From Pseudomonadota bacterium (GTDB lineage Bacteria > Pseudomonadota > Gammaproteobacteria > Burkholderiales > Nitrosomonadaceae), in contig JAFEGA010000002.1 of assembly GCA_018240285.1 (NCBI GenBank), positions 1 to 64,000 on the forward strand: a DNA stretch of 64,000 nucleotides, written 5' to 3'. Below are positions 7,696 to 61,609 of the stretch, in pieces. Below the pieces are notes generated by a model. The model was not told the origin of the DNA, did no database searches, and saw only the letters and a list, made by a program, of their open reading frames with translations. The stretch's first letter is position 1. Every line of letters starts with the position of its first letter. A program made the translations under genes and the position numbers.

Positions 7696-9678
7696 TCAAC
7701 CTTGTATCAACTTAATTTCTGCTGCTGCGAGATTTTCTTGTGTACCGCGGAGAACAATCACATCGCCAAGTTCCAAACGTGTTTCTTCAGTTGGCAGCAA
7801 TCCGCGAATATTGCGCCTTCTGACTGCGGTAACTTCGACATCAAGGCTTGCCAAATCAAGCTCACCCAGCGTTTTATCAATCGCAGCCGCATCCTGAGTA
7901 ATAGTAATCGTCAACAAACGCGGCAACAGTTTGTCACTGCCATCTTCCGCCTCATCCGTCACACCATGATAGAAGCCGCGCAACAAGCTGTAGCGCTGCT
8001 CGCGGATTTGCCTGATGCGGCGCAAAATCCGCCCGGTCGATATGTCGACAAACATCATCGCGTGCGACGCCAGCATTAAGCTGCCTTCCATAATTTCCGC
8101 GACCACTTCGGTAGCACCAGCTTCTTTCAATAAATCAATGTCAGAATCATCGCGCGCCCGGACGACAACGGAGAGATCTGGACGTAATTCCTGGACATGT
8201 TTGAGAATTTTTAACGTGGAAACCGTATCGGCATAACTGACCACCAAAACTTTTGCGCGCATCAGACCGGCTGCAATCAATACTTCGCGCCGGGCCGCAT
8301 CGCCGTACACCACCGCCTCCCCTGCACTGGTCGCTTCCCGGATGCGTTGTGGGTCAAGATCCAAGGCAATAAACGGTATCGATTCCTGCTCGAATATGCG
8401 CGCAATGCTCTGTCCACTGCGTCCATAACCGCAGATGATCACATGGTTCTGTGCCACCATCGTCTGGGCGGCAATCGATGTGATTTGCATGGCACGATAC
8501 ATCCAATCCGAACCGTAAAAACGGTGAATCACCGACTCACTGTATTCAATCAGAAATGGGGCAATGAACATCGACAACACCATCGCCGCAAGCACCGGCT
8601 GAAGAACAGAATTTTCGATCAAACGGAACTCACCGGCTTGTGCTAGTAATACAAATCCGAATTCCCCGGCTTGCGCCAGACTCAGTCCCGTCCTGACTGC
8701 GACATTAGAATCCGCGCCAAACAAGCGCGACAAACCGGCAACGATCACTATTTTCAATACCGTGAGTCCCGCCAGGATCACAAATACCCAGACGAAGCTC
8801 TCAATGACGACTTGCATATCCAGCAACATGCCGATCGTGACAAAAAACAGTCCGAGCAAAATATCGCGGAAAGGTTTGATATCATCTTCCACCTGGTAGC
8901 GATACTCCGTCTCGGAAATCAGCATGCCCGCCAGAAACGCGCCCAGCGCCAGCGACAGGCCGGCTAATTCGGTCAGCCATGCGGTCCCGAGCGTAACCAG
9001 CAGCACGTTGAGCACGAACAATTCCGATGATTTCTGCCGTGCCACCAAATGAAACCAAGGGCGCATCAATTTCTGCCCGAAAAACAGCAAAAAAGTCAGC
9101 ACCGCCACCACCTTCAACAAAGCAACCGAAAGCATCCAGCTAAAATCGCTGGTATCGCTATCGATCTCGATCGCCAAAGCCGGGATGATGATCAATAGCG
9201 GAATCACCGCCAAATCCTGAAAAAGCAACACGCCGATCACTTGCCGGCCATGCGTGGAATTCAGTTCCGCCCGCTCCGTCAGGATTTTGCTCACAATCGC
9301 CGTCGAGGACATGGCCAGGGCGCCGCCCAGCACCAATCCGGCGTGCCAATCCAGCGCCAGCATCCAGGCAATCGCCATCACCACGGCAATACTGACAACC
9401 ACCTGTGCCGTACCAAAACCCAAAACAATGCGTTTCATCGTGATCAATTTCGGCAAACTGAATTCCAAACCCACGCTGAACATCAAAAATACCACACCAA
9501 ACTCGGCCAGATGACGAGTCTCGTCACTATCTGCAATCCAACCCAAAGCATGTGGTCCGATACACACCCCCGCCAGCAAATAACCCAGCATCGGCGGCAG
9601 GCGCAATGAGCGGAATACCACCACAGCCAATACTGAAACAGTTAACAAAATAAGCACAGGCTGCAACGGATTAAACAT
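7696..9678 (-). CDS. CPA2 family K+/H+ antiporter (KefB/KefC-like) with RCK domain
   Basis: A 660-aa inner-membrane transporter with about 12 membrane segments in residues 1-390 (Na_H exchanger fold, with LPPMLGYLLAGVCIGP and FGVVFLMFSVGLEFS). A TrkA-N/RCK NAD-binding domain follows from about residue 410 (HVIICGYGRSGQSIARIFEQE). A TrkA-C-like domain ends the protein (GELDLASLDVEVTAVRRRN...LELGDVIVLRGT). Kef systems export potassium and are gated by glutathione adducts. It is divergent from gshA-gshB, which make glutathione, a suggestive pairing. The exact subtype (KefB, KefC or YbaL) cannot be fixed by eye. Confidence 0.88.
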   Translation of the reverse strand: MFNPLQPVLILLTVSVLAVVVFRSLRLPPMLGYLLAGVCIGPHALGWIADSDETRHLAEFGVVFLMFSVGLEFSLPKLITMKRIVLGFGTAQVVVSIAVVMAIAWMLALDWHAGLVLGGALAMSSTAIVSKILTERAELNSTHGRQVIGVLLFQDLAVIPLLIIIPALAIEIDSDTSDFSWMLSVALLKVVAVLTFLLFFGQKLMRPWFHLVARQKSSELFVLNVLLVTLGTAWLTELAGLSLALGAFLAGMLISETEYRYQVEDDIKPFRDILLGLFFVTIGMLLDMQVVIESFVWVFVILAGLTVLKIVIVAGLSRLFGADSNVAVRTGLSLAQAGEFGFVLLAQAGEFRLIENSVLQPVLAAMVLSMFIAPFLIEYSESVIHRFYGSDWMYRAMQITSIAAQTMVAQNHVIICGYGRSGQSIARIFEQESIPFIALDLDPQRIREATSAGEAVVYGDAARREVLIAAGLMRAKVLVVSYADTVSTLKILKHVQELRPDLSVVVRARDDSDIDLLKEAGATEVVAEIMEGSLMLASHAMMFVDISTGRILRRIRQIREQRYSLLRGFYHGVTDEAEDGSDKLLPRLLTITITQDAAAIDKTLGELDLASLDVEVTAVRRRNIRGLLPTEETRLELGDVIVLRGTQENLAAAEIKLIQG

Positions 9679-9759
9679 AGCGGCGAAAATCTATTTTGAA
9701 CAAAAAGCGATAAGATACTTCAGGATAGCGCGCTTCACAATCTGCGCAAGACATAATGC

Positions 9760-9765
9760 TATAAT
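9760..9765 (+). promoter_or_regulatory. Candidate -10 element of gshA
   Basis: A perfect TATAAT lies 27 bases before the gshA start codon. The only -35-like hexamer (TTCACA at 9734) is 20 bases upstream, wider than ideal, so the promoter is tentative. Confidence 0.35.
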
Positions 9766-9792
9766 CGTGGCGATTTAACACTTCATACGGAA

Positions 9793-11088
9793 ATGCCAGT
9801 ACCTCATCTTTCAACCGCCCTGCGTGGCCCCATCCTCGATCTTGAAAGCCGTATCATCAACGCCATGCCGACCATTGAGCATTGGTTGAGAAACAAATGG
9901 CGCGAGCATTCCGTTCCTTTTTATTGCTCAGTCGATCTACGCAACAGCGGCTTCAAATTGGCGCCCGTGGATACCAATTTGTTTCCCGGCGGTTTCAATA
10001 ACCTAAATCCGGAATTCATCCCGCTCTGCGTTCAGGCGATGATGAGCGCGATTGAAAAAATTTGCCCGGACACACACAGCATCCTGTTGATCCCGGAAAA
10101 CCACACGCGCAACACCTTCTACTTGCAGAATATCGCCACGCTGCAAAACATCATCCAGCGCGCCGGATTGAATGTACGCCTGGGCACGTTGCTGCCCGAA
10201 GTGACTGAAGCCACCCGGATTGATCTGCCGGATGGACAATCCATCACGCTCGAACCTATCATCCGCAAAAACAACAAACTCGGTGTCAGCGGCTTCGATC
10301 CCTGTGCAGTGCTGCTGAATAATGATTTATCCAACGGTGCGCCGGAGATTCTACAGGGCTTGCAGCAAACGGTTATTCCACCTTTGCACGCCGGCTGGGC
10401 GACACGGCGCAAGTCGGAGCACTTTGCCGCGTACGATCGCGTGGCACAGGAATTCGCCGATCTGATCGGCATCGATCCGTGGTTGATCAATCCGCGCTTC
10501 ACTTCGTGCGGGGAAATCAATTTCCTGGAAAAACAAGGTGTGGAATGCGTTGCGGCGGCGATCGACCGGATTCTCTCGGTGATCAAGAAAAAATATCAGC
10601 AGTACGAAGTAAAAGAAGATCCCTTTGTCATCGTCAAGGCCGATTCCGGCACCTACGGCATGGGCATCATGACGGTCAAGAGCGGCGAGGATATCTACAA
10701 TCTCAACCGCAAGCAGCGTAACAAAATGGCGGTGGTAAAAGAAGGGCTGCAAGTATCGCACGTGCTGGTGCAGGAAGGTGTCTACACTTTTGAAACGATC
10801 AATCAGGCGGTGGCCGAGCCGGTGGTGTACATGATCGACCGTTACGTCGTCGGCGGTTTTTACCGCGTGCATACCGGGCGCGGCATCGACGAAAACCTCA
10901 ACGCCCCGGGCATGCATTTCGTGCCGCTGGCGTTCGAAACCACCTGTTTGGAAGCCAACGCCAAGCAACCGAACATCATTCCGAACCGATTTTATGCTTA
11001 TGGCGTCGTGGCTCGCCTGGCACTGTTAGCCGCCGCATTGGAATTGGAACAAACCGATCCGCATGCGCAAGCACCGCTACCTGCCTGA
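9793..11088 (+). CDS. gshA: Glutamate-cysteine ligase, Acidithiobacillus/Nitrosomonas type
   Basis: First step of glutathione synthesis (L-Glu + L-Cys + ATP). The 431-aa protein is of the proteobacterial class named after Acidithiobacillus ferrooxidans, not the E. coli class. Visible blocks are YCSVDLRNSGFKLAPVDTNLF near residue 45 and FVIVKADSGTYGMGIM near residue 279, an ATP-grasp-like strand and loop. A conserved RYVVGGFYRVHTGRG block and a C-terminal NRFYAYGVVARLALLAAA helix follow. gshB follows after 8 bp, so the two are one transcription unit. Confidence 0.92.
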   Translation: MPVPHLSTALRGPILDLESRIINAMPTIEHWLRNKWREHSVPFYCSVDLRNSGFKLAPVDTNLFPGGFNNLNPEFIPLCVQAMMSAIEKICPDTHSILLIPENHTRNTFYLQNIATLQNIIQRAGLNVRLGTLLPEVTEATRIDLPDGQSITLEPIIRKNNKLGVSGFDPCAVLLNNDLSNGAPEILQGLQQTVIPPLHAGWATRRKSEHFAAYDRVAQEFADLIGIDPWLINPRFTSCGEINFLEKQGVECVAAAIDRILSVIKKKYQQYEVKEDPFVIVKADSGTYGMGIMTVKSGEDIYNLNRKQRNKMAVVKEGLQVSHVLVQEGVYTFETINQAVAEPVVYMIDRYVVGGFYRVHTGRGIDENLNAPGMHFVPLAFETTCLEANAKQPNIIPNRFYAYGVVARLALLAAALELEQTDPHAQAPLPA

Positions 11089-11096
11089 ATGCCGCC

Positions 11097-12062
11097 ATGA
11101 AGCTCGCCTTTATCATCGACCAGTTGGATTCGATCAAAACCGCAAAAGATTCCAGTTTTGCGATGATGCGCGAGGCAATCGCCCGGAATCATCAGATTTA
11201 CGTGCTCTACCAACACGATATCGCATTGATCGATAATGCTGTCATAGGTTCTTGCCGCTCCCTAACCTTAACCGACACTCCCGATCAAGCCGGTCATTGG
11301 TATCACACCGGCGACAGCTTGCCTGTGCCGCTCAATCAATTCGACGCCGTGCTGATGCGCAAGGATCCGCCTTTCGATCTGGAATATGTTTACAGCACGT
11401 ATCTGCTGGAATTAGCACAAACGCAAGGTGCGTTCGTTATCAACAATCCGCGCGCTATCCGCGATCACAATGAAAAGCTCGCGATTGCACAATTCCCGCA
11501 GTGGATCGCTCCCACCCTGGTGACCAGCCAGGCGCATTTGATCCGGGAATTTCTCGCGCAGCATCAGGATATCATTCTGAAACCGCTCGACGGCATGGGC
11601 GGTGCCAGCGTGTTCCGCGTGCACAGCGCCGATCACAATCTCAGCGTGATTCTTGAGACACTAACGCATTACGGCACGCGAACCATCATGGCACAACGGT
11701 TTATCCCTGAGATCGCGCAAGGAGACAAACGCATTCTGCTCATCGGCGGCAAACCCGCACCCTATGCACTGGCGCGGATTCCCAAACCGGGAGAATCGCG
11801 CGGCAATCTTGCTGCCGGCGGCACCGGAAGAGCGCAACCGTTATCCGCACGCGACCAAACCATTGCGGAATCGCTCGGACCCGAATTGGCCAAGCGCGGT
11901 TTGATGCTGGTAGGATTGGATGTAATTGGCGACTACCTAACCGAAGTCAACGTCACCAGTCCGACCGGCATGCAGGAAATTACCCAGCAAACAGGATTTA
12001 ACGTCGCGGGTATGATGCTCGATGCGGTTGAAGCGAGTACCCAGTCAAGCAAAATAAAATAA
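11097..12062 (+). CDS. gshB: Glutathione synthetase
   Basis: Second step of glutathione synthesis, adding Gly to gamma-Glu-Cys. The 321-aa ATP-grasp enzyme shows the N-terminal MKLAFIIDQLDSIKTAKDSS, DAVLMRKDPPFDLEYVYSTYLLE near residue 82, the ATP-grasp loop KPLDGMGGASVFRV near residue 161, and the C-terminal DVIGDYLTEVNVTSPTGMQEI block. It is directly downstream of gshA. The AT-rich insert at 12.1 kb begins after its stop. Confidence 0.96.
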   Translation: MKLAFIIDQLDSIKTAKDSSFAMMREAIARNHQIYVLYQHDIALIDNAVIGSCRSLTLTDTPDQAGHWYHTGDSLPVPLNQFDAVLMRKDPPFDLEYVYSTYLLELAQTQGAFVINNPRAIRDHNEKLAIAQFPQWIAPTLVTSQAHLIREFLAQHQDIILKPLDGMGGASVFRVHSADHNLSVILETLTHYGTRTIMAQRFIPEIAQGDKRILLIGGKPAPYALARIPKPGESRGNLAAGGTGRAQPLSARDQTIAESLGPELAKRGLMLVGLDVIGDYLTEVNVTSPTGMQEITQQTGFNVAGMMLDAVEASTQSSKIK

Positions 12063-12144
12063 CTATCTACAAAAGTATAATTAAAGCAGGAGTTAAAATA
12101 TTAAGTATCACTAATGCATCAACAGTCTGCCATATTTGATAACT

Positions 12145-15100
12145 ATGACTGACCCCAATCGTACCATTAGAAAACTAGCAGAAATCACCGATGCGGCATT
12201 GTTTGAAAGACTTGCAACTGCTGTTTTGAGGTCCTACAAGCCGTCTCTTTATGAAAACCTAAGTCACCCTGGCGTAAACTCAGATGGTAAAACCGTCAAA
12301 GCACCACTTGATGGCATTGGATGGATACGCGATATCGGCGGCGATAGAGTCATTGCGGCAGCACACTCGACATGTAAGCAAGATGATATTGAGAAAAAAT
12401 GGCTCCATGATCCTACTACTGCTAAAACACGAAAGACCGGCAGTAAACCATCAACTCCAGAAGGCGATTTGCGCAAAGCGATCCGGGAAATAAACGCTTT
12501 CCGCCAAGATCAAACTAATCTTCAAGCAACTCTTGCACTAACCAGTAATCGCGAACCAAGCCAAACAAGCATCGTAACCGCACAGCAATTAGCTTCGAAA
12601 GCAGGCATTGATCTTGACATTTGGTCTGCTTCCAGAATCGCTCAATACTTGGATTCAGCTCACGGACAATGGCTGCGAAAAGTATACTTTGGTGATTCTG
12701 TAGAGTTTGTATCTGCTGAGTTGTTGCAATCATGTACCCAGAGAAATCTGCTTGGATACATTCATTTGATGAGCTCCGCGGAGCTTGTGGATCGAGAAAC
12801 TTCAATACAGCGTTCTTCAGGTCATACGCTACTAGTTGGCCCTTCGGGCGTTGGCAAAACAACAATAGCACTTCAAATTCTGAACCGCCATGCTGAAGCA
12901 GGTGGGTTTGGGCTTGTAATTCCACATGAAACCGTAGTCTTGGCTACAAGTTTGACGGAAGCTATTGATATTGAATTACGCAAGCTGGAGCCCGATTTAC
13001 AGGCTGGCTCGGGTCACCAGGCATTGTCTCTAGCCTCTGAAAATCTTCCGTTCATTGTTGTCATTGAAGATATTAATGCTGCAAGCGATCCACCAATGGT
13101 TCTCAACAAAGTGGTGAATTGGGTGTTATCAAGCAACACTGATTCAATTATCCAATGGCGGCTTATATGTCCAGTCTGGCCTCGATACATTGATTCTCTC
13201 AATCAAAAATTAAAAAATTCACATATTTCTATGTTGCAAGCTGTGGATGTTTACACCGATGGGCAAGCTGAAGAAGCCATACAAAAAAAGAGTCAAATGG
13301 CCGGAAGCACATTATTGCCAGCTACAATCTTATCAATTGCAAAAGCACTCGGTAATGATCCTCTTCTAATCGCTTTATACGACTTTACAAATTTACCCGA
13401 TGCAATAAAAGTGGTTGATCTATACATAGAAAGAGAATTAGCTCTAGTAGCATCCAACTCATCCAGCTTCCACCGATCCGATGTCAGTGATGCCATTGAC
13501 AATCTTGTGCGGCAGATGCTCATTAAAAGAAAACTGAACCCAACCTTGAGAGAAATCAATGATTGGTTTCGGCAAGGGCCGAGGGAACGTGAAATATTGG
13601 GCCATGTCTTTAAGGCAAGTAGTGTATTCCGGCTTGTTCATCGAGGCAGTGCGGATGTTTTAATACCTCGGCATGATCGAGTATTACTATCGCTTTTTAG
13701 TCATATTATGAGTGAAGATCTGCGAAACAATAGGATAAATGAAGAATATTTAACCGATCCTTTTTTTGCAGAAGCAATGGGATTGGCAATCCTGCACTCA
13801 CAATCCGAACTTGATCAATTGAATTGGTTAATACAGACAAATCCACTTTCTCTGTTTTATGCATTTCATCTCTCGGGAAAATCAAGCTCATCAAACCTGT
13901 CAGCAATAATTCATCTAATAAAAAATTGGCTTTCAGGCAAGGATTCGCACCGTGTAAAGTTTCGAACCGTTCGTTTTATTGTTCTACAGATTCTGGCGGA
14001 GACCGATTCTGTCGATGTACTGGCAATAACAAGCCTATTTTCAAAGGAAAATCAAAATTACCATTGGTACAAAGCCCGGTTCAGGAATGGTGATCTTGGC
14101 GCAGGTTTAAATTTGCTGACATTATTTGAATTTGGAACCAGAATATCAGGCCAAGATGAACTATTAAAACATGTCCTTGCGCGCTCCGGCTCTCAGATTA
14201 CACAAGAGTTGATAAAATTATTAAACATTCCAAACTTAAATAAACGAATTAAGACGGGATGTCTCTACCTTGCTGGCTACCTTGGCAGTCCATTACTTGC
14301 ACCAGCGATACTTACTTCCTGGAACTTCGACAAGCCTGAAAATCGAGAACTCAAAGCTTATCTTTGGGCTTCCGCCAGATGTTATAACGCCGAAACAGAT
14401 AATGTTTTAGAGTCCGTATGTGATGTATGGGCAGAACTGCCTGAGAGTAAAGAGGATCAGGATTTCAGTTTAACAATATATAGCTTGGCAGCATACCGAA
14501 TTTCTTGGGAGTTCCGTCGCTACTTGCCTTCCGCTGCGATTCCATATTTTGTTGGAAGAGCATGCACCGATAATCGATTGGAATGGCCAATTACATACAT
14601 GCTGCGCAACATCGATCATCCAGTTGCTGTTGAGCATATTGCTAGATTCATAGCCAATCGTAATCGAAATCTGCAACCAGGTATGTTCGATCCCAGTCCC
14701 AACTTTTTATTAAATGAGTGGGAGCGTCAGCAACGCGAAGATGGAATCCGAATGTCATCAGCTTCCAAAAACAGATTACTAGAACTTGCATTCGATCCCA
14801 CAAATGACTTACCACTGAGAAAATCGGCATTCCGAGTATGGGAAGTGTCTCAGTCGCCTGGAGATATAAATCATATTAAGCAAATTGATAAAACAAGTGA
14901 TCTGCACGAAAAAGCCATATGGGCTAGAGCTCGAAGAGGTGACAAAACTGTCATACCACAGCTAATCGAATTAATTCAAACAAACCCGAGCTACTGGTGG
15001 CAAGCAGGACGTTATTTATGGTCAAACGAAATGACCGAAGCACTTCACCAAAGTATTAAAATTATGTCGAATAACATAAAAACTTATCGTAACAATGAAA

Positions 15101-15504
15101 CTGATACTGAATGGATTCTTTCAGAAAGAATCATGGAAATTGATCAGCGATCGGCCGAGCACATTGTTCTTCAAGAATGGGAAAATTTGAAGTATTCACC
15201 CCGATTCGTTCAAGTTGCTTTGTATCTTGCAACCCCTCAACTGGCACAATTAGCGAAAGAAGCAATCGCACAAGCAGCTGAGCCAGCCAAATTCCTGAAG
15301 CACGTAACGATGCATTTTGGTTGGAAAACTCAAGGACGTACCGGGATTACTCGCTTTGAGCAAGTAAAACTGCTCTGTGATTACATAGAGCTTTTGTCAG
15401 AACACGACATCTATGCGCTTTGGGAGTTATGTAACGAACGCAATTGGATTGATTTCAGGAAAATGTATCTTGACGAGAGGCTCGCACAAACAGAACATTT
15501 TTGA
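12145..15504 (+). CDS. Large P-loop (STAND-like) NTPase, candidate defence protein
   Basis: A 1119-aa protein I do not recognise by name. Residues 1-180 form an N-terminal domain with DGIGWI around D56 and AAAHSTCK...KKW around 72-85, a layout loosely like a PD-(D/E)XK nuclease domain but with His in place of the usual acid. Walker A is GPSGVGKTT (G232-T240); a Walker B-like strand FIVVIEDIN is at 303-311. About 700 helical residues follow, probably repeat-like, without clear catalytic motifs. Effector-like N-terminus, NTPase and long helical C-terminus is the plan of STAND/Avs immune proteins. It is AT-rich next to GC-richer gshB and metE, suggesting transfer. ATG at 12145 is used; an in-frame TTG lies 9 bases upstream and no clear ribosome-binding site is present. 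A 103-aa gene follows after 6 bp. Confidence 0.7.
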   Translation: MTDPNRTIRKLAEITDAALFERLATAVLRSYKPSLYENLSHPGVNSDGKTVKAPLDGIGWIRDIGGDRVIAAAHSTCKQDDIEKKWLHDPTTAKTRKTGSKPSTPEGDLRKAIREINAFRQDQTNLQATLALTSNREPSQTSIVTAQQLASKAGIDLDIWSASRIAQYLDSAHGQWLRKVYFGDSVEFVSAELLQSCTQRNLLGYIHLMSSAELVDRETSIQRSSGHTLLVGPSGVGKTTIALQILNRHAEAGGFGLVIPHETVVLATSLTEAIDIELRKLEPDLQAGSGHQALSLASENLPFIVVIEDINAASDPPMVLNKVVNWVLSSNTDSIIQWRLICPVWPRYIDSLNQKLKNSHISMLQAVDVYTDGQAEEAIQKKSQMAGSTLLPATILSIAKALGNDPLLIALYDFTNLPDAIKVVDLYIERELALVASNSSSFHRSDVSDAIDNLVRQMLIKRKLNPTLREINDWFRQGPREREILGHVFKASSVFRLVHRGSADVLIPRHDRVLLSLFSHIMSEDLRNNRINEEYLTDPFFAEAMGLAILHSQSELDQLNWLIQTNPLSLFYAFHLSGKSSSSNLSAIIHLIKNWLSGKDSHRVKFRTVRFIVLQILAETDSVDVLAITSLFSKENQNYHWYKARFRNGDLGAGLNLLTLFEFGTRISGQDELLKHVLARSGSQITQELIKLLNIPNLNKRIKTGCLYLAGYLGSPLLAPAILTSWNFDKPENRELKAYLWASARCYNAETDNVLESVCDVWAELPESKEDQDFSLTIYSLAAYRISWEFRRYLPSAAIPYFVGRACTDNRLEWPITYMLRNIDHPVAVEHIARFIANRNRNLQPGMFDPSPNFLLNEWERQQREDGIRMSSASKNRLLELAFDPTNDLPLRKSAFRVWEVSQSPGDINHIKQIDKTSDLHEKAIWARARRGDKTVIPQLIELIQTNPSYWWQAGRYLWSNEMTEALHQSIKIMSNNIKTYRNNETDTEWILSERIMEIDQRSAEHIVLQEWENLKYSPRFVQVALYLATPQLAQLAKEAIAQAAEPAKFLKHVTMHFGWKTQGRTGITRFEQVKLLCDYIELLSEHDIYALWELCNERNWIDFRKMYLDERLAQTEHF

Positions 15505-15510
15505 AAACAA

Positions 15511-15822
15511 ATGTATACAACAATTGATTTCTCGATTCTCAACAAGGCGATTGAAGAAAATACAATTATTTCAACTCGATTTTGGATTGAAGATCAAACG
15601 CGACATTCAGGTAAAACGCTGCCGGAATTGATAGATAGCTTGTTTGATTGGTTAAATAAGCATCAAACTCAGAAAGCTTTTGAGATTATCGCTGGAATCT
15701 TCCAGGAATCAGCGAAACGAACTGATTTGGAGAGATTACAGGGTTTTATTAAGCATTGGCCACATGCACAAGAACTCATGGCAGATCTAACACTCTCGAT
15801 CAAAAAAAGAACGCTCGACTAA
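15511..15822 (+). CDS. Small hypothetical protein, partner of the upstream NTPase
   Basis: A 103-aa, mostly helical, charged, soluble protein (MYTTIDFSILNKAIEEN...). I recognise no domain. It begins 6 bp after the stop of the large NTPase gene with only a weak A-rich leader, so it is probably translated by coupling and works with that protein. It shares the low GC content of the upstream gene. It could be a regulator, a stabilising partner or an immunity factor; nothing in the sequence decides between these. Confidence 0.6.
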   Translation: MYTTIDFSILNKAIEENTIISTRFWIEDQTRHSGKTLPELIDSLFDWLNKHQTQKAFEIIAGIFQESAKRTDLERLQGFIKHWPHAQELMADLTLSIKKRTLD

Positions 15823-15851
15823 CAAGACAAAACCCACTTCCATTTTAAAAA

Positions 15852-20598: not shown

Positions 20599-23049
20599 TT
20601 AATGAATTTTTTGCTCAATTATCTCTCGCGCCTCTTTAAGTGCAATCTTACATTGATAGATATATCGATGATGTTTAGCATGCTCTGCTTTGGTTAAAAC
20701 AGTTTCAATAAATCGCATGACTCCTTCTTTGGCCTCAATACTCATATGCTCCACATACATTTTTACGAATGGTAACAAATTTGTTGCTACTTTATATGGA
20801 TAGTGGTCGCCATCATTAAACTGAGGAAGCAATAATGATTTTGCTTTATTCAGTTGATTTTCTGCATCAGCAATTGGCAAAGGCACACTGTTACCAGTGA
20901 CTGCATTTTCCAAAATATATCTTGCATAATGATTATCTATATATTTAGTGTCATATCCAGATCGGCTTACACCATATGCGGCGTTAAAATATTTCTCAGC
21001 TTGTGGAAAATTGCCTAAAAATAATTGGCATATAGCGTATTGCAACCAAAACTGAGGATCATTTTCATAACCATACTCTTGTTTAATTAAATCATAGATT
21101 TCTTCAATTGCCTCTAACGATTTTGTTTGAGTATTGGGAAGTAGTTGTTGGATCAAACGAAACTGAATAATTCTTGTAGGGAATTTACGATGAACACTCG
21201 AAACCCCATAATTCTTAGCATTTTTTATTGCATTAACTAAGCACCGGATAAGCACATCAAGTGGTACGAATTTACGAATGATAGTCTCTGCAACAATTGC
21301 AGAAACTGTTCTTACTATATTTGGTGATTTCAACTGTATTAACGATTTAACACCACTTGAATTCGCCAGAAGTTGCCGTAATGGCATTGTGTTCACAAGA
21401 TCATCAACTACATCTTGACGAAGCTCTACAGCTTGAGTAACAGTTAAAATTAGACACATCAACAGACCATCAAAGTCTTTATTTCTAAAATCAATATCTC
21501 CAAAAGATTTCTTTAGATTATCAATCGCACTTGGTGACTTTATTACACCAAGTAAAATACCCCTAATTTGATTTGAAACCTCACTTCTAATTACTTTGTT
21601 TTTATAATAGTCTGGAGCTCCTTGAAGTTCCTCCCACAATCCGTGAACCTGTAATAAATTGACAAAATCAGAACGTTCTTTATCACTTAACTCATCAATT
21701 TCAAATTCGATAGGGCGGCTATCTGCTGAATTCTGTATGAGTTTACTTTCTATTGAATCATAACGGATTGTTCTATCGGCAATGACAAGCACATCGCCTT
21801 TTCTAATTAATCTTTGAATATCCTTAATACAATTCAGTCGTTCCCCATTGCCACAATCATCAACTAAGAATGCAACATTTCTTTGTTCAACATTAAAAAT
21901 TGTTTGAATATCTTTTGACCAATTTCTGCTGGTATCTACAAGCATAAGAACACAGTAACCCTTTTCAATTAATGCACGGGAAAGCTGATAAAGAGCAATG
22001 CTTTTTCCATTTGATATTTCGCTAATAATAGAAAAAAAATTAGAATGTTCTTTCGTAAGATTATTAATAATGTCACTAACAACTTGTCTTTGGACGGTGT
22101 ACTTGCCATGATTTTCCACTTCAGGCATTAGTAACAAATCTTCATTGGAAAACCCAGAAGATAATAGTTTGAACACATCAGGATTTGACGGGCGTAATGG
22201 ATTTCTTGGAATTTTAAGTTCATTAAACGCCTCGAAACTCTCTGGTAATTTTCGCAAAGCTAAACGATCTATTTTTGATAAAGATTCTGCAAAGCCGACT
22301 ACACCGATTGGACAAAATGTACCAAAGTCATCAAGCATAATTTCTAGATCACTATCACCATCTTCTTTAATGATGAAAAAAGTCTTGTCTGCAATATCCA
22401 ATCCACACTGATATAGAGTTTTTGCAATATCCAAATCGTTTAATGAATATCCAATAAAAAATATAGCTTTTGCAGCCCTAAGATCATGTTTCAATTGGTT
22501 ATGCCAGCCTGAACCAAAGAACTCCCCAGCAGCATAACCAGGCAATGTTATAACCAAATTGGTTTCAATATTGTCTGATGAAATCTTGTCAATAAAACCG
22601 TGAATATGAATACATGTACGAGGATTATGTGAGAATTCCTCCACTTTAGATGCTACTGTTGCAGAAAGCACTTTTCTTCCAGCTTGAGCAGCTGCTTTTT
22701 CATAACCATCATCAAAGTTTGTAGTGTAAATTCGAGCCCAGTTTTCACTAGCTATCTTTATAGCCGACTCCATAGATTCAGTTTCAATACGAACAGTAAA
22801 TCTTTCTCGAAGAAAATTGATGTAATTTTCATTGCCAATCTTCTTTAGTAGTTGAGTGGCGGCAACTCTTAAATCTTTTGTTGATTTGCCATTACATTCG
22901 CTCACCATTTCGTCAGCGAGATTGTTACCAGTAGGTAAAGGTCGAGATTTAATGTCTTTAAAAAGAGTGGAGAAGCCTGCTCCAAGAAAAAGAATAGCAT
23001 TACCCTGAATAGCATGTTGCAGTGCATCATTGAACAACATCTTTGGCAT
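20599..23049 (-). CDS. SIR2-domain STAND-like protein, candidate NAD-depleting defence protein
   Basis: An 816-aa protein. The N-terminal SIR2 domain shows FLGAGFS (residues 21-27), TTNFD (109-113), IHIHG (147-151) and FIGYSLNDLDI near 200, the core NAD-binding and catalytic set. The NTPase region follows: SNGKSIALYQL with GKS at 348-350, a shortened Walker A, and VAFLVDD near 390, a Walker B. The C-terminal 400 residues look helical and TPR-like (EEIYDLIKQEYGY...LFLGNFPQAEKYFNAAYG). SIR2 fused to a STAND NTPase is known in antiphage systems such as Avs5, which deplete NAD on infection. The gene is strongly AT-rich against metR and stands alone. AAGGGA about 10 bases before ATG supports the start. 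Confidence 0.82.
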   Translation of the reverse strand: MPKMLFNDALQHAIQGNAILFLGAGFSTLFKDIKSRPLPTGNNLADEMVSECNGKSTKDLRVAATQLLKKIGNENYINFLRERFTVRIETESMESAIKIASENWARIYTTNFDDGYEKAAAQAGRKVLSATVASKVEEFSHNPRTCIHIHGFIDKISSDNIETNLVITLPGYAAGEFFGSGWHNQLKHDLRAAKAIFFIGYSLNDLDIAKTLYQCGLDIADKTFFIIKEDGDSDLEIMLDDFGTFCPIGVVGFAESLSKIDRLALRKLPESFEAFNELKIPRNPLRPSNPDVFKLLSSGFSNEDLLLMPEVENHGKYTVQRQVVSDIINNLTKEHSNFFSIISEISNGKSIALYQLSRALIEKGYCVLMLVDTSRNWSKDIQTIFNVEQRNVAFLVDDCGNGERLNCIKDIQRLIRKGDVLVIADRTIRYDSIESKLIQNSADSRPIEFEIDELSDKERSDFVNLLQVHGLWEELQGAPDYYKNKVIRSEVSNQIRGILLGVIKSPSAIDNLKKSFGDIDFRNKDFDGLLMCLILTVTQAVELRQDVVDDLVNTMPLRQLLANSSGVKSLIQLKSPNIVRTVSAIVAETIIRKFVPLDVLIRCLVNAIKNAKNYGVSSVHRKFPTRIIQFRLIQQLLPNTQTKSLEAIEEIYDLIKQEYGYENDPQFWLQYAICQLFLGNFPQAEKYFNAAYGVSRSGYDTKYIDNHYARYILENAVTGNSVPLPIADAENQLNKAKSLLLPQFNDGDHYPYKVATNLLPFVKMYVEHMSIEAKEGVMRFIETVLTKAEHAKHHRYIYQCKIALKEAREIIEQKIH

Positions 23050-59686: not shown

Positions 59687-61609
59687 TTAATGTAAATCCC
59701 CAATGTTTTTATACAAAAATTTTCCGTATAAATCATAGGCGCGCACGGTGAGATGAGCATTATCCCAAATCAAGGGCTTCCCACCCTCAAATAAATGACA
59801 CTTATTAGTTGATGGAGTGCAAAAAAATTCAGCTTTCTCGATCCATTTAAGATTAGGATCTTTCGAAACTAAATCGCGTAACTTATTTGATATTCTCAAT
59901 CGATCAAAACGTTGATTTCTGTACACCGAAGAGGCGATCAAATCATAATTTCCGTTAAGTCCGGCCGTCTTGAAACTAAAGGAAGACAAATCTTCAAACA
60001 TAACAGAACCAATCAAAGCTACTTTTGCCTTGCTTTGGCTAGTTATAAATTTGGCAAAAAGATAGCCATCCTTATAAGTAGATTCCTGCCATTTAGCAGA
60101 AATTATTACGATATCGGAATCAAAAATCAAACCTAAATCAATATTAGCGCCATTACAAGAAACTTTATTTTTTAAATCATAGACATCACTGAAACAAGGA
60201 TCATCAAGCTCTATTTTTCTTATGGACATATCAGATCGAGATAGAGACTGCAGTGACAAATAAGCATCCTCAGCAAAAGAGTCACCTATTATCAATATCT
60301 TAGTACATACAGGCAAACTGCACGAAAAATTGTTGTTGGAAGGGTAAAACAATTGTCTCTTCTCATCAATCAACTTTTTCTCCTCTTCTACATTCACAAG
60401 AGTCACCCCGCCTCGTTCAGTCAACCTGCTTCTGAAATACTCAAGAAAGCCATTGGTAGTATGAGCTTTATATCCTAGCGCAACGATCAAAAACACCAAC
60501 AAAAAGCCAAAAGAATAAAAGGCTTTTACTCCAATAATTGCTTTATTCCTCACATTCTTCTCAACAAATCGGTATGCCCAAAATGAGGCCAAAACGATAA
60601 AGGGTATGCTAATAACTTTAATGATTAACGCGCTCCCATCTACGACGTGATAATCAATTGCAGAAAAAACAGGATTGTGAAATAAGTAAAGTGGATAACT
60701 TATCAATCCGACCCATACAAGTAAATTGCTTCCCAAGATTTTCTTCGAAATGCTTGAGAAACGCGAAAAATAAATGACCAAACAAGATCCGAGTATTGGC
60801 ATTATGGTTATAAAATACGGATGCTTGTCAGTCTTATCAATCAATAAATAAGCTAAAAAAATAAGTAACAATCCGGTCAAAGAAAAAAAATCGGAAATTG
60901 TTTTATTGAGACTTGGGGCGAAAGATGAAATCGAAACGAGGGCCAAAATTGATCCAGCCAATAGCTCCCAAGCCCTCGTGTGAAACGAGTAAAAAGACAA
61001 ATTAGGATCAATGAGTGTCTCATTAATGGCAAAATAAAATGACACAAAAAACAACGCGCCAAGTACAAAAAATTTGGCGTTTAAAATTCGAGCTGAAATA
61101 AACAAAATTAAAGGGAAGATCAAATAAAATTGCTCCTCTACCGCAAGACTCCAAGTGTGCAACAAAGGAGCTGATTGATTAAATGGATTAAAGTAATCCG
61201 TCTCCAAGTAAAAGAAATAATTGGACAAAAACCCAAATGAGGCCACCAAACTTTGACCTACGTTTTTAATATCTGCAGGCGAAAAAGTGATGCTTATGAG
61301 AATGGTTAAAAGAGCGGTTATCAAAAGCGAAGGAAGTAGTCTTCTAGCGCGCTTATCATAAAAGCTGACCACAGAGAAAGTTCCATCGTTTATTTGGGTG
61401 TAGATGATTGAAGTTATTAGATAACCGCTGATTACGAAGAAAACATCCACACCTAAAAAACCGCCTCCAAACAGCTCAAAGCCAGCGTGGAACAGTATGA
61501 CTGGCAGCACAGCAAGCGCCCTAAGTCCGTCTATCTCTCTTCTGTAGTTCATAGTTATCGATGCTTCTTGGAAGCCTTCTCTGGTTTCGCTGTTCATCAG
61601 TTTAAACAT
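59687..61609 (-). CDS. O-acyltransferase with C-terminal SGNH domain (OafA type)
   Basis: A 640-aa protein that adds acyl groups, usually acetyl, to surface polysaccharides. The acyltransferase-3 domain (about residues 20-380) has YRREIDGLRALAVLPVILFHAG, the FLGVDVFFVISGYLIT block and about ten membrane segments. The C-terminal SGNH domain has LIIGDSFAEDAYLSL and DNAHLTVRAYDLYG (DxxH). GGGAGG five bases before ATG at 61609 supports the long start. It is AT-rich and stands in a decayed mobile region, so it was probably acquired. Confidence 0.93.
   Translation of the reverse strand: MFKLMNSETREGFQEASITMNYRREIDGLRALAVLPVILFHAGFELFGGGFLGVDVFFVISGYLITSIIYTQINDGTFSVVSFYDKRARRLLPSLLITALLTILISITFSPADIKNVGQSLVASFGFLSNYFFYLETDYFNPFNQSAPLLHTWSLAVEEQFYLIFPLILFISARILNAKFFVLGALFFVSFYFAINETLIDPNLSFYSFHTRAWELLAGSILALVSISSFAPSLNKTISDFFSLTGLLLIFLAYLLIDKTDKHPYFITIMPILGSCLVIYFSRFSSISKKILGSNLLVWVGLISYPLYLFHNPVFSAIDYHVVDGSALIIKVISIPFIVLASFWAYRFVEKNVRNKAIIGVKAFYSFGFLLVFLIVALGYKAHTTNGFLEYFRSRLTERGGVTLVNVEEEKKLIDEKRQLFYPSNNNFSCSLPVCTKILIIGDSFAEDAYLSLQSLSRSDMSIRKIELDDPCFSDVYDLKNKVSCNGANIDLGLIFDSDIVIISAKWQESTYKDGYLFAKFITSQSKAKVALIGSVMFEDLSSFSFKTAGLNGNYDLIASSVYRNQRFDRLRISNKLRDLVSKDPNLKWIEKAEFFCTPSTNKCHLFEGGKPLIWDNAHLTVRAYDLYGKFLYKNIGDLH

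Follow-up and report, generated by a model that had tools for sequence, protein, structure and literature searches.

The DNA analyzed here, referred to as the window, is a stretch of 64,000 nt from a member of the Nitrosomonadaceae (contig JAFEGA010000002.1, positions 1 to 64,000). Directly behind gshB it carries two open reading frames (ORFs) on the forward strand, a large one at 12145-15504 encoding 1119 amino acids (aa) and a small one at 15511-15822 encoding 103 aa, with the ATG of the latter lying 6 bp past the stop codon of the former. A first-pass annotation of the window had reported both ORFs with these coordinates, sizes and gap, as was borne out by the ORF check, and had taken them to be a STAND-like NTPase and a separate partner gene. 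The partner gene did not survive the analysis. The small ORF encodes the C-terminus of the large protein, from which one TGA splits it off, and the locus is likely to hold a single gene, acquired horizontally and probably broken not long ago, for an Avs-like STAND (NLR-like) immune receptor of ~1224 aa. The features of the locus are as follows.

12033..15847, no strand: acquired stretch at the junction of gshB and the next gene (absent in 7/7 relatives examined; GC content)
12145..15822, +: one broken gene for a STAND receptor of ~1224 codons, with an internal TGA (frame, tail profile, profile A3)
12145..12693, +: N-terminal domain of predicted PD-(D/E)XK type, residues 1-183; candidate site E21, D56, H74, K85 (model confidence 85.1, fold matches, residue counts)
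12838..12861, +: P-loop GPSGVGKT, residues 232-239 (G235, G237 and K238 in 22/22)
13057..13077, +: Walker B-like strand VVIEDIN, residues 305-311 (D309 and N311 in 22/22)
13351..13362, +: GxP-like motif GNDP, residues 403-406 (D405 and P406 in 22/22)
13669..13680, +: winged-helix histidine motif RHDR, residues 509-512 (R509-H510-D511 in 22/22)
13702..15501, +: C-terminal alpha-helical solenoid, residues ~520-1119, presumed sensor (secondary structure, fold matches)
15502..15504, +: in-frame TGA splitting the gene, codon 1120 (sequence, profile A3 alignment)
15511..15822, +: "small partner" ORF, the last 103 codons of the same protein (hidden Markov model of 21 tails)

A single interrupted gene on an acquired insert

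The two ORFs share one frame, in which codon 1120 is the only stop met on reading through from the large into the small ORF, and the latter aligns with the C-terminal ends of homologues. A tblastn search of plasmids gave seven records with a query coverage of 97-100% and an identity of 26-30%, and the plasmid homologue products, at 1191-1244 aa, are ~70-125 aa longer than the large ORF. A hidden Markov model (HMM) was built from 21 homologue tails, with the window sequence excluded to avoid circularity. It found the small ORF at E 1.3e-15, compared with 0.011 for the best of 5000 shuffles; of the 763 six-frame segments of the window, no other reached E <1. All 21 intact homologues in tblastn align across the TGA as a single alignment. 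Likewise, profile A3 (1229 positions), which contains the large ORF of the window but not its tail, aligns from positions 2 to 1228 over 12154-15816 with "1 TGA" inside.

The tail was present in 25 of the 29 loci searched; the other four were one locus at a contig end (L032), L042, L046 and L048. In all 22 intact loci it lay within one intact ORF of ~1190-1245 aa; 21 of these loci also contributed to the tail profile, and L050 did not. A separate tail was seen in only three of the 29 loci (L033, L034 and L045), each time behind a lesion of the same gene. According to the first-pass annotation, its proposal would fall if the two genes did not co-occur elsewhere. A search for such co-occurrence found no free-standing small gene beside an intact large gene (0/22 intact loci; 29 loci searched), since the tail is part of one ORF in every intact locus.

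The insert was acquired horizontally. gshB was matched in 85/85 genomes of the genus (own included), and in 7/7 relatives examined, picked from the nine with the most similar gshB, an unmatched stretch of 23-32 bp separates gshB from the next gene; at this place the window has 3.8 kb. The family gene is absent in the 84 other genomes of the genus. No convincing direct repeats or target duplications were found at the edges of the insert. The base composition was confirmed to be unlike the surroundings, with a GC content of 41.4% against 47.0% for the window and a third-position GC of 35% against 61% for gshB; among same-size windows across the 64,000 nt, 6.6% were equally low. The insert is not the most AT-rich part, as the lowest GC of the window lies elsewhere, at 21-23 kb (34-35%). 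The earlier description of the pair as lying alone between housekeeping genes holds for the direct flanks, which resemble such genes (names assigned by eye), but not for the wider region, where a SIR2-STAND gene is found 4.8 kb away (20602-23049).

Domain architecture of the receptor

The N-domain (residues 1-220) was modeled from an alignment of 21 sequences with a mean predicted local distance difference test score (pLDDT) of 85.1, and the model was compared with PD-(D/E)XK folds, as had been suggested. Foldseek ranked Avs4 and MspJI first (Avs4 E 2.6e-4). The best VIA match was residues 2-174 of Avs4, with Z 10.2 and a root mean square deviation (rmsd) of 3.1 Å over 139 residues, followed by AspBHI (Z 9.8), MspJI (9.7) and LlaBIII (8.9); with BspD6I and FokI these matches spanned 8.8-9.8. 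Twenty chains reached a Z of at least 8, and of the 14 listed entries at this level, 13 were Avs4 or restriction/nicking enzymes and one was of unknown function. Avs4, AspBHI, MspJI, BspD6I, LlaBIII and FokI are PD-(D/E)XK enzymes. The alpha-beta core of this fold was found in the predicted structure, which places the N-domain in the PD-(D/E)XK-type fold class. At the sequence level, the N-domain profile gave a single chance-like hit in the PDB (E 0.69) and none to Mrr/MspJI-type chains, and no match at E <=0.001 was obtained against a viral structure library.

Residue counts over an alignment of 22 sequences showed E21 and D56 to be conserved in 22/22. Position 73 was H in 12, A in 6 and E in 4 sequences, position 74 was H in 20/22, and position 75 was T in 21 and S in 1. 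K85, located in the next helix, was conserved in 22/22 and may be a shifted catalytic lysine. The N-terminal residues, which the first-pass annotation could not match to a known system, thus depart from the textbook pattern, there being no E-x-K.

The P-loop NTPase core noted earlier was supported by its motifs. A P-loop and a Walker B-like strand were both present, with G235, G237, K238, D309 and N311 conserved in 22/22, as were D405-P406 within [GSAN]xDP and the RHD triplet. The latter two are a GxP-like motif and a winged-helix histidine motif. Residues 200-1225 were modeled as the read-through product, with the stop as W, from an alignment of 15 (pLDDT 83.8). The model consists of a mixed alpha/beta NTPase followed by nearly all helices, in agreement with the long helical C-terminus described before, and the helical array is continued through the last ~106 residues (block pLDDT 74-88). 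For this model, Foldseek placed NLRP7 and NLRC4 at the top of the list, and VIA gave Z 9.9-10.4 for NOD2, NLRC4 and NLRP3 over 341-382 residues, a comparison that barely covers the solenoid. Assignment to the STAND class was decided by the P-loop, Walker B, GxP-like and RHD motifs together with the layout, the fold matches being middling.

STAND receptors comprise an N-terminal effector, a central NTPase and a C-terminal sensor, according to PMC12931631. An effector-type domain, a STAND NTPase and a C-terminal part were found here in one protein, with the solenoid as the presumed sensor. The N-domain fold, the motifs and the helical C-terminus together uphold the Avs/STAND-type plan that the first-pass annotation had recognized.

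Searches of system and family libraries gave no convincing match for the family. The window protein hit none of the PADLOC Avs models, with E values as high as 10 considered. Across 21 family members PADLOC gave no convincing match: two Avs2 models hit 1/21 each (best E 3e-4), and weak hits were obtained for Nhi (3/21, E 1.7e-5), AbiO (3/21, 6.4e-5) and mad8 (5/21, 3e-4). With NCBIfam, nothing exceeded the cut-off for the window protein, and one weak KaiC hit was seen in 1/21 members. PHROGs gave none at 0.001 for the four proteins scanned, and the PDB sequence search with the whole protein gave weak matches only, nearly all of them P-loop proteins. The family was not found in the literature, including PMC12931631, PMC13092281 and a look-up by accession, which gave no paper, a search to which supplements and most subscription papers were out of reach, so that it may be in print. 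The locus had been ranked as the best candidate for an undescribed system. None of the libraries searched catalogues the family, but the locus holds one protein of a known kind, in a copy that is probably damaged.

Spread, decay and surroundings of the family

Scanning of genome contigs turned up 21 loci, and in 14 of these the receptor is encoded by one uninterrupted ORF (1188-1234 aa). The hosts were Hydrogenophilales (42% identity), Pandoraea (40%), Ramlibacter, Corallococcus, a cyanobacterium, Acinetobacter, Marinomonas, Devosia and others, and plasmid-borne copies were found in Sphingomonas, Aliarcobacter, Pseudanabaena and two haloarchaea. The family was detected in 3/398 genomes of the phylum (own included, and one of the three being a partial match of 553 positions), in 1/399 of the order (own) and in 1/85 of the genus (own); a second genome matching over a 91-residue P-loop stretch only was excluded from the counts. 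The family is thus thinly spread over bacteria and haloarchaea. Viral contigs scanned with two short patterns, a weak test, yielded no relative. As a side observation, L032 belongs by title to a Klebsiella pneumoniae metagenome bin, yet the receptor it encodes shares 61% identity with that of Corallococcus, and the contig may have been binned wrongly.

Decay of the receptor gene is recurrent across the family. Among 31 copies, 22 were intact, two were cut by a contig end (L032 and L051) and seven were damaged, namely the window copy, L033, L045, L034 and L048, with L042 and L046 added on the basis of insertion-like sequence. The lesion is an in-frame TAG in L033 and a TAG plus a frameshift in L045. 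In L034 (Acinetobacter variabilis) an insertion of ~1 kb at 9222-10262, near the receptor C-terminus, is probably an insertion sequence. The L048 receptor stops after ~106 residues inside the contig, with 525 bp of unrelated sequence behind it, and in L042 and L046 the gene gives way to insertion-sequence-like DNA not far from the contig end. Several copies come from draft or metagenome assemblies, and some of the damage may be assembly error. The sequence behind the truncated receptor (L048:6316-6840) resembles, by eye, the beginning of a type I restriction methylase subunit.

The neighborhoods offer modest evidence for a role in defense. Shedu and Lit lie near the receptor on Aliarcobacter plasmids, and AbiEii and a type I restriction subunit were also seen near homologues. 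Of the flanking ORFs, 199 were collected and 119 scanned, picked mostly by length and with some redundant loci left out; PADLOC gave 3 UvrD/GajB-like and 2 AbiEii among the matches listed (25 of 176 families). The large upstream P-loop/NACHT genes were scanned apart from these. In three related loci a large P-loop gene lies directly upstream of the receptor. L047 and L048 carry it with 1716 and 1715 aa, respectively (L047:770-5917; L048:773-5917), with AAA_16 below cut-off in L047, and in L041:5015-5917 only the two ends of the same gene are left. This protein is probably a STAND protein. A different protein of 1590 aa is encoded directly upstream in L044 (L044:1223-5992); it has an NCAB2 domain at its C-terminus, and its NACHT match falls slightly short of the cut-off. 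Both large genes are intact only in L047 and L044, the L048 receptor being truncated. The adjoining large P-loop genes may point to paired receptors.

Three other features were recorded in the window. The SIR2-STAND gene mentioned above lies on the reverse strand (34.8% GC) and encodes an Avs5-like protein of 816 aa, which matched 9jap (titled EfAvs5 SIR2-STAND) over residues 15-731 at a phmmer E of 9.1e-61; it was matched in 3/85 genomes of the genus, own included, and lies in a second stretch that is unmatched in the relatives (the five, of six, whose match reaches there). A PADLOC SoFic model hit one of the 39 window ORFs scanned at E 2.7e-49. An AT-rich ORF of 640 aa at 59690-61609 (reverse strand) appears by eye to be an acyltransferase-3/SGNH-type membrane protein and gave no PDB sequence match at E 0.01.

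Interpretation and comparison with known systems

In intact members, the C-terminal helical solenoid would recognize a phage protein, upon which the NACHT-like NTPase would switch state and assemble. Assembly would bring the N-terminal PD-(D/E)XK-type domains together, and the gathered domains would cleave nucleic acid and thereby end the infection in the manner of Avs1-4. The Avs1-4 nucleases kill the infected cell on recognizing the terminase, the portal or another phage protein, as stated in PMC12931631. In the window copy, the TGA would remove the last ~105 residues. With the end of the presumed sensor missing, this copy is expected to be inactive or impaired, unless the two pieces are both produced and join up again. 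For the family as a whole, we put forward, with close to an even chance of being right, an uncatalogued single-protein receptor of bacteria and haloarchaea that combines a PD-(D/E)XK-fold enzyme with a rebuilt site (E21, D56, H74, K85), a NACHT-like NTPase switch and a helical sensor of ~700 residues, and that in some lineages stands beside a second, larger P-loop (probably STAND) protein, suggesting paired receptors.

Several observations weigh against reading the locus as a broken gene for an Avs-like receptor. The canonical E-x-K is absent in 22/22 sequences and the pattern D...(E/Q)-x-K was not found, given which the N-domain may not cut. The Foldseek TM-scores for residues 200-1225 were low (0.12-0.25 by the model's length), and replication AAA+ ATPases (Cdc6/Orc, Hda and RFC) gave VIA Z scores of 10.8-11.4 over ~185-280 residues, above or level with the NLRs, so that the fold alone does not separate STAND from other AAA+ ATPases. 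In Pfam scans of the window protein and 21 family members with curated cut-offs, all 19 matches of the window protein were below cut-off, including AAA_16 (26.4 bits; cut-off 32.6) and nSTAND3 (17.4; cut-off 27.2), and hence no curated STAND/NACHT profile was matched over its cut-off; matches among the members to AAA_16 (12/21), nSTAND3 (5/21) and nSTAND_NTPase5 (4/21) speak for STAND, though weakly. Two queries of phage records found no copy. Neighborhoods were mixed, with other homologues lying among ordinary or housekeeping genes, and PADLOC also hit window ORFs (7 families from 39 of the 54 ORFs); since organisms and ORF choice differ between the flank and window scans, no enrichment is claimed. 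Finally, the C-terminal piece is 19% identical to L028 where the rest is 42-49% identical. Against 10 homologues it showed 17-26% identity and the adjoining stretches 25-49%, and the same piece among seven homologue pairs showed 26-43% against 30-57%. The low identity thus partly reflects a family-wide variability of this end, and it allows for some relaxed constraint, which is unproven.

The absent E-x-K also bears on a serious, though not the favored, alternative, namely that the N-domain of this STAND protein is non-catalytic or not a nuclease and uses the restriction-endonuclease fold for binding or other chemistry. The kept set of E21, D56, H74 (20/22) and K85 (22/22) is compatible with such a domain, but an enzyme is favored, since D56 and K85 are strictly conserved and the fold is close to those of Avs4 and Mrr-type nucleases. 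The interruption itself can be read in three further ways. A true two-gene system, in which an NTPase effector acts with an independent 103-aa regulator or sensor, has in its favor the 6-bp gap with an ATG directly past the stop, for which translational coupling is conceivable. It was rejected on the tail-profile match and the tail lying inside the large ORF in 22/22 intact loci; it is further at odds with the shared frame, the homology of the small ORF to the C-termini of intact relatives and the lack of a free-standing copy next to an intact gene in 29 loci, and its probability is considered close to nil.

The same ATG 6 bp past the TGA would permit a functional split, by termination and re-initiation or by partial read-through, with the pieces reassembling into a working receptor. 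Both pieces are otherwise open without a second stop, the tail retains its conserved end, and in the model of the read-through product the last ~106 residues remain helical. The arrangement was, however, seen in this genome only, among those searched, and no obvious ribosome-binding site was seen by eye right before the ATG. Other copies carry clearly destructive lesions, and therefore simple decay is the commoner event; a functional split is deemed unlikely. It is also improbable that the TGA is an assembly or sequencing error in a gene that is intact in the real genome, a reading that would count against a broken gene. In its favor, the single stop is the sole break in 3.7 kb and the genome is a 48-contig draft. 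Nothing direct speaks against an error, but relatives carry breaks too. A single acquired receptor gene, probably broken recently, is thus the explanation preferred here.

With this result the supposed two-gene system turns out to be a false lead, and an Avs-like receptor family that can be tested takes its place. The case also illustrates that, where one gene encodes a large immune receptor, a nonsense mutation can mimic a "new small partner" and so mislead scans for co-occurrence. The uncatalogued Avs-like family, with its odd candidate nuclease site, is found in distant bacteria, both on plasmids and on chromosomal contigs, and in haloarchaea on plasmids. Should the rebuilt active site prove catalytic, the PD-(D/E)XK effectors of STAND immunity would gain a further variant.

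Among known proteins, the metazoan NLRs (NLRC4, NOD2 and NLRP3) gave middling fold matches for a NACHT-like NTPase with helical and winged-helix domains, with replication AAA+ ATPases scoring as high over shorter stretches; they have another effector, and the receptor has a helical solenoid instead of leucine-rich repeats; the resemblance is at the fold level only. Avs5/SIR2-STAND (PDB 9jap) gave a match for the STAND NTPase (Z 10.0, but with an rmsd of 20.6 Å) and differs in that the N-domain of the receptor is of the predicted PD-(D/E)XK type and not SIR2. The Mrr/MspJI/AspBHI/LlaBIII-type endonuclease domains share the fold of residues ~1-188 (Z 8.9-9.8) and differ in the active-site residues and in giving no PDB sequence match to the N-domain profile. 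Avs4 (AVAST type 4; PDB 8dgf) combines a nuclease-like domain, a STAND NTPase and a helical C-terminus in one polypeptide. The window protein is shorter (~1220 aa against 1534-1541 residues for the 8dgf chains), is without E-x-K and matches no PADLOC Avs model, but it has the same order of domains, and Avs4 is the best fold match of its N-domain.

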